DNA from: Helicobacter labetoulli
GTDB taxonomy: Bacteria > Campylobacterota > Campylobacteria > Campylobacterales > Helicobacteraceae
DNA: 64,000 nucleotides
NCBI RefSeq assembly: GCF_003670275.1
Contig: NZ_QXJF01000008.1
Span: 61,984-125,983, forward strand
Direction: 5' to 3'
Below the pieces are notes generated by a model, which saw only the letters and a program-made list of their open reading frames with translations, made no database searches and was not told the DNA's origin. Shown in pieces: positions 17,252-32,145 of the stretch. The first letter of the stretch is position 1. Each line of letters opens with the position of its first letter. The position numbers were made by a program, and so were the translations under genes.

Positions 17252-17297
17252 AATTGCAAAAACCTTGGCATTCTAATTGCAAAAACCTTGGCATTCT
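17252..17297. repeat. 23-bp tandem duplication at the end of the 123-bp element
   Basis: Two exact 23-bp units, each running from AATTGC to GGCATTCT, are directly adjacent. The second unit contains the outer end (GGCATTC) of the 123-bp palindrome, so the duplication involves the element boundary. Confidence 0.8.
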
Positions 17298-17412
17298 AAG
17301 ATTGTGCTGCTAGTTTGGTAGTTGTCAAAAAAATCGCGATTGAGCTTACTAAAGGTAAGTGATTGAGCGATTTTTGCAGACTCCGCCAAAATAGCAGTGC
17401 AAGCTGAATGCC
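17290..17412 (-). repeat. 123-bp palindromic element, copy A, abutting the metE stop codon
   Basis: Terminal inverted repeat GGCATTC/GAATGCC, then further pairing arms (CTGCTA, TTTGG, AAAAATCGC with their complements) and an innermost CTTAC/GTAAG hairpin. It is the same length as copies B (29502-29624) and C (30630-30752) inside alaS and differs from B at only about five positions. It begins immediately after the TAG of metE. The codon phase used by the alaS copies is open through this non-coding copy too. Confidence 0.85.
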
Positions 17413-27348: not shown

Positions 27349-28187
27349 TAAGGCTTCCTAAGCACAACGATAAAAGAATGATTTTGATTAACATAAAATA
27401 CACTAGGATAACCAAGCAACACCAGCCTACGCCTCTCATTTTGGTCCCAAATAATCAAATCGTGATATTTAAACCCAGCCTTTATTCCAGCATTAGCGAT
27501 ATTTGAATGTAAATCAACATAGGGAATTTTATTTTTTGTATCTCTATAATCCTTAACCACCCATACATTATAACCATTGCTTTTAGTCTTTATATAAAGC
27601 TTTTGCATAAGCTTTGAAACCGCATCCATATAGCTATCAAAATCCATATTGCCAAAGTCGTGCGTATCGCTTGAATATATTTTTGTAGTTGCATTATTGT
27701 CTATTACAAATGCTGATTTTTTGTGCCTTTTTGCCCTATCATCTACCACCTTATGAATTAAATCTGCATAGGGAGGTGAGGTTATGGTTAGTTGCAATGA
27801 ATTGCTTTCCAGCTCATCTACAAACTCTAAACAATCCCCCTGCTTTATGTTGTATTTATTTTTATCAAAAAGACTAGAGTCTTGTCTAAGAGATGTTAAG
27901 GCAATTTCATAAAATTCCCTATTAAGCTCAAAACCTATAAAATCTCGCTCTAGGCTTAAAGCACTTCTTGCACTCGTGCCTGTGCCTAAAAATGGGTCGA
28001 GCACCATATCGCCTTTTGTGGAGTATAGCGATATTACCCTATCGCTTAATTTTTGTGGAAAGGTTGCCCCGTGTTTTAAAGCATTTTTAGATCTTGGCGA
28101 TGAAAGATCATTCCATACGCTACGAGAATTTTTAGCCCACTCTTGTGTGCTTAAACCATTAAACGCATTTTTGCTTTTTTTATCCAT
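27348..28187 (-). CDS. DNA methyltransferase 2 of the restriction-modification operon
   Basis: Second DNA amino-methyltransferase, 279 residues. Motif X region [14 protein letters not shown] (about 39-52), SAM motif [15 protein letters not shown] (about 60-74) and catalytic [10 protein letters not shown] (about 134-143) appear in the order X-I-IV. It is not a close copy of methyltransferase 1, so the pair probably modifies different strands of one asymmetric site. Its start lies 8 bp inside the end of alaS, which places the whole system downstream of an essential housekeeping gene and probably under its transcription. Confidence 0.87.
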
Positions 28188-31100
28188 TTAGCTTCTCTCT
28201 CGCAATCCTTTTTGCCAAATCTAGCGCTTCTTTTATTGCATTAGGATTTGTGATTTTGCCTCCAGCGGTGGCAAAGTCATCTCTACCCCCACCATTGCCC
28301 CCTAGAATCTGTGCGACTTGCTTTACCCACGCTCCAGCTTTGAGTTTAGATTCTACGCCCTTTACTCCAGCGGTTAGGGCGATCTTGCCACTAGATTCTG
28401 TTACAAGTAAAATCGCTACTTTTTCATTCTCATTTTTTGCCCTATCTATGATGTCTTTTGCCTCTTTTGCTTCCACTAAATCTAGCTTTAACACGATGAG
28501 TTTCACCCCATTGACTTCCTCATAATCTAGGCTTTTGACACTCTGCTTTGCCTTGTTTGCACTCTCTCTTGCCTCTTTCAAAGCGTTTTGCAACTTTACC
28601 ACACCTTGCAAGACATCTTGGGCTTTTAGCTGCTCTTTTAGGCTTTTTATAGATTCTAATGCTTCTTTGCCATAGTTATATGCGGCTTTGCCACACACCG
28701 CTTCAATGCGTCTAACACCGCTACTCACGCTACTTTCACGCACGATATAAAAGCTCCCAATCTCTGCGGTATTATGAGCGTGAATCCCCCCGCACAGCTC
28801 AATAGAATCCCCAAAGCTTATCACACGCACACTCTCCCCATACTTCTCGCCAAAAAGTGCCATAGCCCCCTTTGCCTTTGCTTCTTCAATCCCCATAGTC
28901 TCGCACACTTGTGGAGAAGACTGCGCGATTTTGTCATTCACTAGGGCTTGTATTTGCTCTAGCTCATTTGTGCTTAACGCCTTTGGGTGAGAGAAGTCAA
29001 ACCGCAAACGATTTGCTTCTACAAGACTTCCAGCTTGTGCGATATGAGATCCTAGAATCTGCCTTAGAGCATAATGGAGTAAGTGCGTAGCGGAGTGATG
29101 CTTAATGATTTCAAAGCGAGTAGAATCTACTTGTGCTTTTACCAAATCCCCTGCTTTTAATGGGCTTAGGGCGTGGATTTTAGAGAGATTTAAGCCGAAG
29201 TATTTTTGGGTGTCAAGGACTTGTGCTATCTGCGTTGTCTCTTCTTGCAATTCAGCTTTTTCACTATTTTCTTTTCGCAAAAAGGGGTTTATCCCCTCCC
29301 GTTCGCAGTCGTGCTGCTCACCCCTTAACCCGAAAAAGCCGCCGCTTTTTCGGCAATCAAGGGGAGAGCCTCGCTTATCTCTCTCTAGCTCCGCCTTGAT
29401 GGAGGCACTACTGCCGCCTTTCTCCCAAAGCTCCGCACCACGAGAGAGGCGAGATTCTGTCATAGTGGAATCGACTTGGGATTCTGTATTGCTAGAATCT
29501 TGGCATTCTAAGATTGTGCTGCTAGTTTGGGGGTTGTCAAGAAAATCGCGATTGAGCTTACTAGAGGTAAGTGATTGAGCGATTTTTGCAGACTCCGCCA
29601 AAATAGCAGTGCAAACTGAATGCCCCAATAAAAACCCTTTGTCTCCTACCGGTCCGCCAGATTCTGGATAAAATGGCGTAGCTTCCAACATTACATAGCC
29701 CTCTTGCCCTGCCTGTAAAGCTTCCACTCTTTTAAAGTTAGAATCTAAAAGGGCTAGAATCTTAGATTCCACACTCACGCACTCATAGCCTACAAACTCA
29801 TTCTCTCCAAACTCGCTTAAAAGTGTGTTAAAATCACCATCTTTTACACTATCGCCGCTGCCTTTCCAATGTGCTTTGCTCCGCTTCTTTTGCTCCTGCA
29901 TACATCTTTCAAAACTCTGTAAATCTATGCTTAAGTTAAGCTCCCTTAGCATATCTTGTGTTAAATCAAGCGGAAAACCATAAGTGTCATAAAGCGTAAA
30001 AGCAATGCTACCATTAAAGTTTTTTTCATTCTTTTGCTGCATAGAAATTAGCTCCGCTTGAAACAACGCCATCCCCGATTCTATCGTCTCAAAAAATCTC
30101 TCTTCTTCTGCCTTGCATTGCTCTTGCAGCGCGTTTTTACGCTCTTTTAAATAGTTATAATGTCCCCCCATAGTATCACACACAGCACCCACCACTTCAT
30201 ATAAAAACGCCTTTCTTAAGCCTAGCAAGTAGCCGTGTCTCACCGCCCTGCGTAAGATTCTACGCAAAACATAGCCCCTACCTTCTTTGTCAAAATTTAC
30301 TCCTTGGGCGAGCAGAAAGGCTACGCTTCTAGCGTGATCAGCAATCACCCTAAAACTCGCCTGCGTTGCTTGTATGTCATTGCTGTTTAAAGTTTTATTT
30401 TCTTTTTCACAAGGGGGAGGGGCTTGAATTTGCAAGTGTGGATTATTGCTCCGCAAAAATGCGAAGTCGCTCCCTCCCCCTTGTGTATCCCCCACCCCTA
30501 CAACGCTTTTAAGGTTGTGCTTCGCACTTTCATTGATTGTATTTGTGGCAAAGTCGTGCTTTGCCACTTTGGCGGTTGTGGAATCTGCTTGAGATTCTGC
30601 AATGCTAGAATCCATATCGCTAGAATCTTGGCATTCTAAGGATTGAGATGATAAATCGTGACTTTGCGAAGTGGAAGCAAGAAGCTTACTAGGCGTAAGT
30701 GCCGCAGATTCCGCTGAAGCAATCCGCGATTTATCGCTCAATACTGAATGCCCCAAAATCTCATCATCTCTATAATACTTCTTCCCCGTTACCCTCTCAA
30801 TACACTCCATCAAAGGCTTAAACAGCGAAGTATCAAAGTTATTAATCTTTCCTTCTTTCAGTGCTATTACTCGCTCTAGCCCCATACCTGTATCAATGCT
30901 AGGCTTAGGCAATGGTGTCAAACTCCCATCAGCACTTCTTTCATACTGCATAAACACAAGATTCCATATCTCTAAAAATCTATCCCCCTCACCGCCGAAA
31001 TAGTCCTCTTCTCCATTAAAAAACTCCGCTCCTTGATCCACATATATCTCACTGCAAGGTCCGCAAGGTCCTGTATCGCCCATTTGCCAGAAGTTATCCT

Positions 31101-31557
31101 TATCACCCATTCTTTTAATGCGACTAGATTCTATATGCTCCTGCCATAATTCATACGCTTCATCATCGCTTTCGTGAATCGTTACATATAAAAGGCTCTT
31201 ATCAAAACCTAAAATTTCTGTTACAAACTCCCACGCATACGCAATAGCTTCTTTTTTAAAATACGCCCCAAAGCTAAAGTTACCAAGCATTTCAAAAAGC
31301 GTGTGATGTCGTGCTGTATAGCCGACATTTTCTAAGTCGTTGTGCTTCCCACCTGCACGGATACAAAGCTGTGAGCTTGTAGCGATATTGGGACTTGGGA
31401 TTGGAATCTTACCTGTAAAAATATCCTTAAACTGCACCATTCCCGCATTGGTAAAAAGCAAACTCGCATCATCTGGCACTAAAGGCATAGAATCATAGAC
31501 TTTATGCCCCTTGCTTTTAAAAAACTCCAAATACAATGCTCTAATATCTTTCATCAC
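28180..31557 (-). CDS. alaS: Alanyl-tRNA synthetase with two large in-frame repeat insertions
   Basis: Charges tRNA-Ala. The catalytic domain ([41 protein letters not shown]), editing domain ([23 protein letters not shown]) and C-Ala region ([17 protein letters not shown]) are all intact. The protein is 1125 residues against a usual 850-880. The excess is two insertions, about residues 268-388 and 645-779, both low-complexity, Ser-rich and encoded by palindromic repeats also found beside metE. Removing them leaves about 870 residues and joins the family sequence (YYRDDEI to [16 protein letters not shown], and [10 protein letters not shown] to [10 protein letters not shown]). The frame is open throughout, so the enzyme is presumably functional. 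Confidence 0.93.
29330..29353 (-). repeat. Hairpin module in alaS (insertion 2)
   Basis: CCGAAAAAGC, loop CGCC, GCTTTTTCGG: a perfect 10-bp stem. The counterpart in the intergenic array (16864-16896) keeps the stem with different bases. It encodes part of the Gly/Arg-rich stretch of the second AlaS insertion (about residues 735-743). Confidence 0.7.
29370..29453 (-). repeat. 84-bp palindromic element inside alaS
   Basis: Arms CTCGC-TTAT-CTCTCTC and GAGAGAG-GCGAG pair; length equals the intergenic copy at 16914-16997. One arm position has changed from C:G to T:A on both sides relative to that copy, preserving pairing. It contributes 28 codons in frame (about AlaS residues 702-730). Confidence 0.75.
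29502..29624 (-). repeat. 123-bp palindromic element, copy B, in frame inside alaS
   Basis: Same terminal GGCATTC/GAATGCC and same length as copies A and C. About 96% identical to copy A by eye. It encodes 41 residues of AlaS (about 645-686), beginning HSVCTAIL and ending TILEC, in the same codon phase as copy C. Confidence 0.88.
30408..30485 (-). repeat. 78-bp palindrome inside alaS (insertion 1)
   Basis: CACAAGGGGGAGGGGC at one end pairs with GCTCCCTCCCCCTTGTG at the other, enclosing about 45 bases that contain the smaller CGC-AAAAAT-GCG hairpin. The length is 26 codons. No second full copy was found in the window. Confidence 0.65.
30531..30597 (-). repeat. Hairpin-containing module inside alaS (insertion 1)
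   Basis: Carries a perfect GTGGCAAAG-TCGTG-CTTTGCCAC hairpin and matches the 66-bp intergenic module at 17024-17089 over its whole length, with scattered differences. Confidence 0.7.
30630..30752 (-). repeat. 123-bp palindromic element, copy C, in frame inside alaS
   Basis: Same length, ends and innermost CTTAC/GTAAG hairpin as copies A and B, but the arms differ in sequence: here ATTGAG/CTCAAT and GATAAATCG/CGATTTATC pair. The palindromic architecture is kept while the bases diverge. It encodes 41 AlaS residues (about 269-310) from HSVLSDK to QSLEC. Confidence 0.85.
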
Positions 31558-31566
31558 TTTGCTCCT

Positions 31567-32145
31567 TTAGAATCTATAACGCACATTTAGGCTTACTGTT
31601 GGGTTGCCTTGCATATCAGTATCAATATTTGGCGTAATCAGTGTATTTTTTGGCATATATTCCTTTGTAAAGACCCACGCAAAACCCCAAGCAAGAAACG
31701 CTCCAACACTCACTTGTAACACAGAATGCTTTTTTGCCTCCACTCTTGAAACTGCTGTGAGTGCCGCTAGAATCCCAACGGGAATGGCTGGCTTCCACCC
31801 ATAGCGGTAATACACATACCCCGCCGCGCTAAATGCGCTGCTTGCGTGTCCGCTTGGCATACCTTTATAAATATCACAACAAGGGCGTTTAGCAAACTCA
31901 ACCTTATAACCATTCTCGTGCATTGTTTGAAAAATCTCTTTAATACCCTCAGTGGCAAGTTGTGTGCTAAGTGTGCCAAGTGCAAGTTGCCCAGCACCCT
32001 CATAATCTTCCATTGCTATGGAGACAATCATTACATACAAAGGCAAAAACCTAAACGCATCGCCAAATTGTTCAAACTCATTCTCTCGTGCGTGAGATAC
32101 GCTTAAGATTCCAAATATACATAGCACCATACAAAGCCGCTTCAT
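31567..32145 (-). CDS. PAP2 family phosphatase-like protein
   Basis: Signal peptide (about 1-19) then a small hydrophobic PAP2 domain with PSGHASSAF (motif 2) and SRVEAKKHSVLQ (motif 3). PAP2 enzymes remove phosphate from lipids such as lipid A or undecaprenyl pyrophosphate. Motif 3 normally reads SRx5Hx3D; here the final Asp is Gln, and the motif 1 Lys spacing before KRP is also off by one. Activity is therefore uncertain. At 192 residues it is short but in range. It lies upstream of alaS on the same strand with 9 bp between. Confidence 0.78.
   Translation of the reverse strand: MKRLCMVLCIFGILSVSHARENEFEQFGDAFRFLPLYVMIVSIAMEDYEGAGQLALGTLSTQLATEGIKEIFQTMHENGYKVEFAKRPCCDIYKGMPSGHASSAFSAAGYVYYRYGWKPAIPVGILAALTAVSRVEAKKHSVLQVSVGAFLAWGFAWVFTKEYMPKNTLITPNIDTDMQGNPTVSLNVRYRF

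Follow-up and report, generated by a model that had tools for sequence, protein, structure and literature searches.

In Rickettsia, the palindromic elements (RPE) are outlined in the accounts cited here as hairpins of 105-146 bp that are present in many copies, both intergenically and in frame within conserved genes unrelated to one another (PMC2229807, PMC10969869); PMC2635572 is a further source on these elements. Wolbachia and Methanocaldococcus jannaschii are summarized as having coding palindromic repeats that lie in frame in housekeeping genes (PMC2996958), and ERIC, YPAL and the 107-bp Correia element are listed as small hairpin repeats fused in frame to ORFs (PMC2229807). Bacterial MITEs are characterized in the same overview as mainly intergenic, several of them with target duplications (PMC2229807). 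REP sequences are palindromic too and are reported within ORFs of several species; in the account cited they measure 20-40 bp and carry GTAG or CGTC tags, the GTAG-tagged ones being tied to RAYT transposases (PMC3733652). PARCEL repeats, among them H. hepaticus HH0050, are outlined as tandem short-domain arrays of palindromic coding sequence, many in membrane proteins (PMC2996958). In mitochondria of Magnusiomyces capitatus, palindromes are reported to interrupt coding genes and to be bypassed, not translated (PMC6649704).

The window analyzed in this work is a stretch of 64,000 nt of the Helicobacter labetoulli genome, and three palindromes in it (copies A, B, and C) are members of a dispersed family of imperfect palindromes of ∼123 bp. 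Measured against the outlines above, the family resembles RPE in being hairpin DNA of many copies that lies in frame within conserved genes and also between genes. The likeness is by description only, and the family differs from RPE in its phylum, in ATTC-type copies that are read in either orientation, in composite inserts, in subfamilies with covarying arms, and in AlaS sites that are variable between relatives whose cores are 96-98% identical. The Wolbachia and M. jannaschii repeats, as summarized, share the in-frame housekeeping-gene habit in other lineages. Unlike the mainly intergenic MITEs of that overview, 44 of 65 tabulated ATTC-type copies lie in ORFs of at least 200 aa; unlike REP sequences as outlined, the elements are 123 bp long and occur in a family in which 0 of 12 genomes had the Y1 transposase; and unlike the PARCEL arrays as outlined, they are dispersed single inserts in housekeeping enzymes, one to three spaced copies per ORF. 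The earlier note knew of no such family in Helicobacter, and we likewise recognized none in the open-licence literature, judged mostly at the level of abstracts. We think it very likely that these hairpins, in frame and predicted to be translated as disordered loops, have spread as a non-autonomous, MITE-like selfish element.

The features of the window that carry the three copies are as follows.

17290-17412, + strand: copy A, a 123-bp palindrome in the metE/metF-like intergenic region, abutting the TAG stop codon of metE
28180-31557, - strand: alaS, 1125 aa with a GTG start, ∼240 aa longer than insert-free relatives (∼881-884 aa)
29487-29501, + strand: left tail of copy B, part of its ∼138-bp unit by flank comparison; the tail is common to dispersed copies
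29502-29624, + strand: copy B, a 123-bp palindrome inside alaS (AlaS residues 645-686)
30615-30629, + strand: left tail of copy C, from sequence and flank comparison
30630-30752, + strand: copy C, a 123-bp palindrome of a different subfamily inside alaS (AlaS residues 269-310)

The copies had been described as 123-bp palindromes with GGCATTC/GAATGCC ends and a CTTAC/GTAAG center, and all of this was found again in the sequence. Five of 123 positions separate copies A and B, as expected from the ∼96% identity first reported; copy C differs from B at 63 of 123 and, as had been recognized, has different arms in the same long fold. Folding energies on the + strand were -58.4 (B), -53.8 (A), and -53.5 kcal/mol (C), with z of -8.0, -7.3, and -7.4, respectively, and 0 of 200 dinucleotide shuffles were as good for each copy; the opposite-strand folds gave z of -4.6 to -7.7. 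Both alaS copies are stop-free and share a codon phase within the single 1125-aa ORF, and the non-coding copy A is open in that same phase over its full length (58-aa frame), so that the earlier reading of the frames was borne out. The neighbors of copy A were identified as metE and a metF-like gene. Promoter and terminator scanning around copy A gave hits at chance level only, and scanning the window for RNA families at gathering thresholds yielded one tRNA and nothing else. GANTC (GATTC/GAATC) motifs at short spacing make a Ser/Asp/Glu-coding tail at 29451-29499 and 30591-30629, and this tail adjoins many copies.

To define the unit, seven copies from this genome and two from a relative (G005) were compared with up to 500 bases of flank. 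On the right, similarity across unrelated genes mostly stops 1-4 nt past the palindrome (7 and 13 nt in two comparisons); on the left it mostly runs 14-26 nt past (3 and 11 nt in two comparisons). Alignment was incomplete for some subfamily pairs, additional blocks of similarity belong to other repeats, and one of the G005 genes and the C21 gene are orthologues. Because of the shared left tail and the sharp right edge, the dispersed unit is put at ∼138 bp. The earlier note had each alaS copy adding exactly 41 codons, and this did not hold: the inserts measure 131 and ∼129 residues, and each copy is joined to other repeats. Relative to 51 other AlaS sequences, the additional stretches span residues 266-396 and 649-773, the second element starting at 645. 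The composite inserts and their modules are these.

29239-29624, - strand: AlaS insert 2 (residues 645-773), copy B plus a Ser/Asp-rich tail and a module read SRGAELW...FLRKEN
29239-29455, - strand: repeat module of insert 2, GC-rich and strongly folding (z -4.1)
30370-30762, - strand: AlaS insert 1 (residues 266-396), copy C plus a Ser/Asp-rich tail and a second palindromic module
30395-30600, - strand: second palindromic module in insert 1; its arms at 30408-30421 and 30472-30485 pair perfectly over 14 bp

Both modules are repeats in their own right. The query 30380-30640 from insert 1 gave 31 matches in the genome, some to the tail only, including a 97% copy at G000:C41:32385-32605, and the insert 2 module has an 85% counterpart within carB and, next to metE, a partial one at 80%. 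Nesting was found in cysK of the same genome (L195:3300-3485), where an ATTC-type copy comes after the left half of one of a second type, which starts GCGGAAG and finishes CAACGC.

The possibility that the genome holds no further copies was refuted by searches of the genome and its relatives. The exact-end pattern occurs seven times in the genome (the backwards-read pattern 0 times); of 11 genomes from the genus, 4 have it, H. labetoulli among them. A covariance model, R1, was built from 15 aligned distinct copies and gave 37 matches in the genome at E ≤ 0.001, a figure to be read with the facts that R1 was built from copies it was tested on, that its E-values are rough, and that weak matches may be other hairpins. 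R1 matched 12 of 19 genomes of the family vs. 0 of 12 from other families of the order. In a wider search, 56 of 121 family genomes, from 9 of 13 genera, were positive; ∼29 candidates were scored per genome, so per-genome counts there are lower bounds, and since the copies share ancestry the counts are not independent. The outer ends are variable and mostly still complementary (GGC/GCC, GCG/CGC, GCA/TGC, GAA/TTC, CAA/TTG, GGG/CCC, and others). On a 47-kb contig of one relative (G008:C6; L300, L301) R1 has many matches; four measure 127 bp and fall outside long ORFs. A scan of AlaS from named genomes returned mainly distant AlaS; H. saguini (L070) was the one record there to bear a Helicobacter species name, and its AlaS carries a divergent copy close to site 1 (30.9 bits).

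We examined 34 of the 37 matches in the genome (another is the antisense of an examined copy). Nineteen stop-to-stop ORFs of at least 250 aa hold 26 of these, with one to three spaced copies per ORF, and eight matches lie outside such ORFs. The host families are AlaS, CarB, CysK, phosphonopyruvate decarboxylase-like, carboxynorspermidine synthase-like, type ISP restriction-modification, N6_N4 DNA methylase (four ORFs), MBOAT, FAD/Fe-S dehydrogenase-like, Cys/Met PLP enzyme, carbamoyltransferase, and amine oxidase-like; for four host ORFs, all families scored below their cut-offs. Genes for DNA methylases and for type ISP restriction-modification turn up repeatedly as hosts (L192, L199, L144, L140). 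Since ORFs were taken stop to stop, a copy may sit before the real start, as is likely for the Cys/Met enzyme ORF (L200), in which the copy covers residues 38-74 and the Pfam match begins at 94. By sequence, the firmest in-frame cases are AlaS, CarB, and CysK, in which domains flank the copy on either side.

Strain comparison of alaS and metE-metF revealed empty sites at both loci. Among 13 genomes, AlaS site 1 is filled only in H. labetoulli, site 2 in the relatives G005 and G001, and site 3 in all three of these genomes. The CysK open frame is insert-free in G001 (307 aa) and extends to 401 aa in H. labetoulli and 415 aa in G005, which carries the GCGGAAG-type copy whole; six other loci in the alignment, which covers 9 of 10, have short linkers. 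For CarB (alignment of 7 of 12 loci), H. labetoulli and G001 carry the same copy at the same place, G005 carries another repeat, and four have short linkers. The copy A site in metE-metF is filled in H. labetoulli and G005 and empty in G001. The empty-site junctions of cysK and metE-metF are too diverged for a target-site duplication to be read. Directly beside the empty site of G001 (L270 4335-4480) lies what appears to be another subfamily (ATTCTAGTAT...AGACGAATTG), and an element like it is also found in H. saguini AlaS (L070:5806-5929).

Database AlaS sequences gave the same picture of variable sites. Among the best 120 of 8000 matches, 111 could be parsed (nine were without an anchor), and site 1 was empty in 91 and filled in 19, with one unrelated longer linker; site 2 was empty in 78 and filled in 33, and site 3 was empty in 74 and filled in 37. 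The matches were ordered by their similarity to the query, and the site counts are accordingly not population frequencies. Within the same best 120 of 8000, 171 pairs differ by at least 25 residues at one site with the rest of AlaS at least 96% identical, pairs whose core lengths differ by more than 12 residues being skipped; the closest differing pairs are 98.1% (site 2) and 98.0% (site 3) identical. Among the matches listed, AlaS lengths were 1150, 993, 991, 961, and 882 aa in H. cinaedi, 1071 to 881 aa in H. bilis, 974 and 933 aa in H. canis, and 1074 aa in H. magdeburgensis, the nearest being an AlaS of H. cinaedi at 81%.

The same loci bear on the strongest alternative, that there is no present transposition and that old insertions are shuffled solely by homologous recombination between repeats together with natural transformation. 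Codons flanking occupied AlaS sites differ from those of empty alleles, and therefore lineages have exchanged whole AlaS segments, so that the strain differences there are partly imported alleles. Different subtypes with the same right flank occur at site 3, which suggests, from the sequences, copy-for-copy exchange. At site 2 the G005 and G001 copies are likewise of different subtypes (31 substitutions, 8 compensated pairs), and inserts are composite and nested. All this would suit shuffling; however, the sharp ends in unrelated genes and the empty cysK and metE-metF sites of G001 require past non-homologous entry, and we regard shuffling alone as unlikely.

The pairing of the family was compared with shuffled sequence and is far better, being kept partly by compensatory change. 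In the consensus hairpin of the 15 copies there are 30 pairs; the TA that follows ATTC is unpaired and invariant (15/15). Paired cells amount to 94.7% vs. 80.8% in shuffles, and 17 of 30 pairs have changed on both sides vs. a shuffle mean of 8.9. None of 500 shuffles was as high on four of five covariation measures; the fifth, further pair types, is weak (24 vs. 21.0, reached by 27 of 500 shuffles). Slid structures pair at 35-42%. The terminal inverted repeats measure 7 bp, pair in 14 or 15 of the 15 copies, and are imperfectly extended. When subfamilies are compared with each other, 5 to 19 pairs per comparison have changed on both sides and still pair, and 3 to 29 are broken, i.e., have no counterpart in the other fold. 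Two close same-site pairs of copies are separated by 2 and 3 substitutions, among which there is no compensated pair. These changes, together with the different subtypes at AlaS site 2, fit selection acting on the mobile source, decay after insertion, and subtype swaps, in a tiny sample.

Covarying arms, and the position of copy A immediately after the metE stop codon, would also be expected of a useful regulatory RNA, an RNase III or terminator-like hairpin selected by the host. We consider this very improbable: the genome's own matches lie mostly in long ORFs (the 26 of 34 above) and in both orientations, their presence varies among relatives, and the substitutions in the two close pairs are uncompensated.

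For the reading frame, 97 of 143 matches were tabulated (at least 40 bits, model positions 1-123 spanned, not antisense of another). Of the 65 ATTC-type copies, 44 are in ORFs of at least 200 aa and 21 elsewhere; the length is a multiple of three (3n) in 40 of 44 vs. 8 of 21, respectively (Fisher p 1.6e-5), a contrast that is overstated since a long open frame required over the copy favors 3n and an open phase. All 44 ORF copies are in phase 1, 28 of them running antisense to the ORF and 16 sense; this constancy is partly built in, as a closed-phase copy would be filed as outside ORFs. Among ATTC copies not 123 long, a subset chosen to lessen the effect of shared descent, 3n lengths were found in 7 of 11 in ORFs vs. 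1 of 14 elsewhere (p 0.007). Two of the four non-3n ORF copies are adjacent in one gene and cancel (122 and 124 nt), one has a doubtful end, and one is unexplained. Thirteen of 17 GCGGAAG-type copies are in ORFs of at least 200 aa, 12 of the 13 being 3n and all sense, with 11 in one phase and 2 in another; the remaining 15 tabulated copies have unclear ends, and 9 of them are in ORFs (3 of 9 being 3n). The earlier assignment to protein-tolerated palindromic elements is thus supported by in-frame 3n copies in unrelated conserved genes in one phase, by copies outside genes, and by empty orthologues, and we make it with high confidence.

These lengths also bear on the idea that self-splicing of the RNA, or ribosomal bypass of the hairpin, takes the insert out before translation or in its course and leaves a protein of normal length. 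The bypassed elements of M. capitatus mitochondria are named byp. The mRNA hairpin is strong and the inserts sit in essential enzymes, as such removal would have it; yet it needs neither 3n lengths nor stop-free sequence, and the copies in ORFs are predominantly 3n, unlike those elsewhere. From this 3n pattern we argue for the opposite of byp-type bypass. The AlaS, CarB, and CysK frames run open right through their copies, and Rfam scanning of positions 28000-32000 at E ≤ 0.1 returned zero matches. Removal is hardly credible.

If translated, the inserts would be accommodated by AlaS as loops. Insert 1 aligns between residues 258 and 263 of Aquifex aeolicus AlaRS (1riq). An AlphaFold model of AlaS from 59 sequences reached a mean pLDDT of 74.2, with 775 of 1125 residues at 70 or above (a run with 26 close sequences gave a mean of 38.6 and was left unused). 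The model matches known alanyl-tRNA synthetases and its AlaRS core is intact; two long stretches, 278-387 and 648-768, have pLDDT of ∼25-30. The inserts are probably disordered loops in this model, low pLDDT alone being no proof of disorder.

In the preferred reading, a non-autonomous MITE-like element would be moved in trans by a putative enzyme; this transposase-in-trans step we judge evenly balanced. Selection would then remove insertions in other phases or in folded cores, and survivors would consequently sit in linkers, tolerated and translated as extra loops. The subfamily hairpins may be kept because mobility needs them, and inserted copies would decay. After insertion, alleles could pass between strains via ordinary homologous recombination, and copies at one site might be exchanged for another subtype through the shared ends. 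Tentatively, the family may still be mobile, a possibility that we rate as doubtful: the folded hairpin with its invariant unpaired TA would be the mobile form recognized by some enzyme, and the remodeling of essential-enzyme linkers would be continuing in at least nine genera. If so, differing loop combinations at three fixed AlaS sites in strains with 96-98% identical cores would follow.

Y1_Tnp (PF01797), the only mobilizing-enzyme family searched, was rejected as a RAYT/IS200-type candidate, being found in 0 of 12 family genomes, H. labetoulli included, and in 5 of 14 control genomes. With respect to carriage, copy B gave zero matches in 72,556 plasmid records. The pattern ATTCTAAGATT..AAGCTGAAT was found in 10 IMG/VR stretches, of which five (L260, L261, L262, L264, and L267) are matched by R1 at E ≤ 0.1, and the exact GGCATTC-subfamily pattern was found in 0 viral contigs. 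One phage contig, IMGVR_UViG_2811995190_000004 (L261, L267), has portal, head, and primase-like genes and five R1 matches.

Horizontal gain of Rickettsia palindromic elements, for which a like size class, hairpin form, and in-frame habit as outlined for RPE could be cited (PMC2229807), has next to no credibility against graded subfamilies over nine genera of one family, which suggest long residence there. The Helicobacter family works like the outlined Rickettsia system, the likeness drawn here being one of function.

Rickettsia and Wolbachia, the best-known hosts of coding palindromes, are hard to manipulate. The coding-palindrome lifestyle is now found in another phylum, with many copies and several subfamilies, and such elements arose or spread well beyond Rickettsiales. 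The inserts explain the oversized AlaS, CarB, and CysK of these genomes. Since empty and occupied alleles of one essential gene are present in close relatives, the entry, tolerance, and loss of such elements become directly testable.
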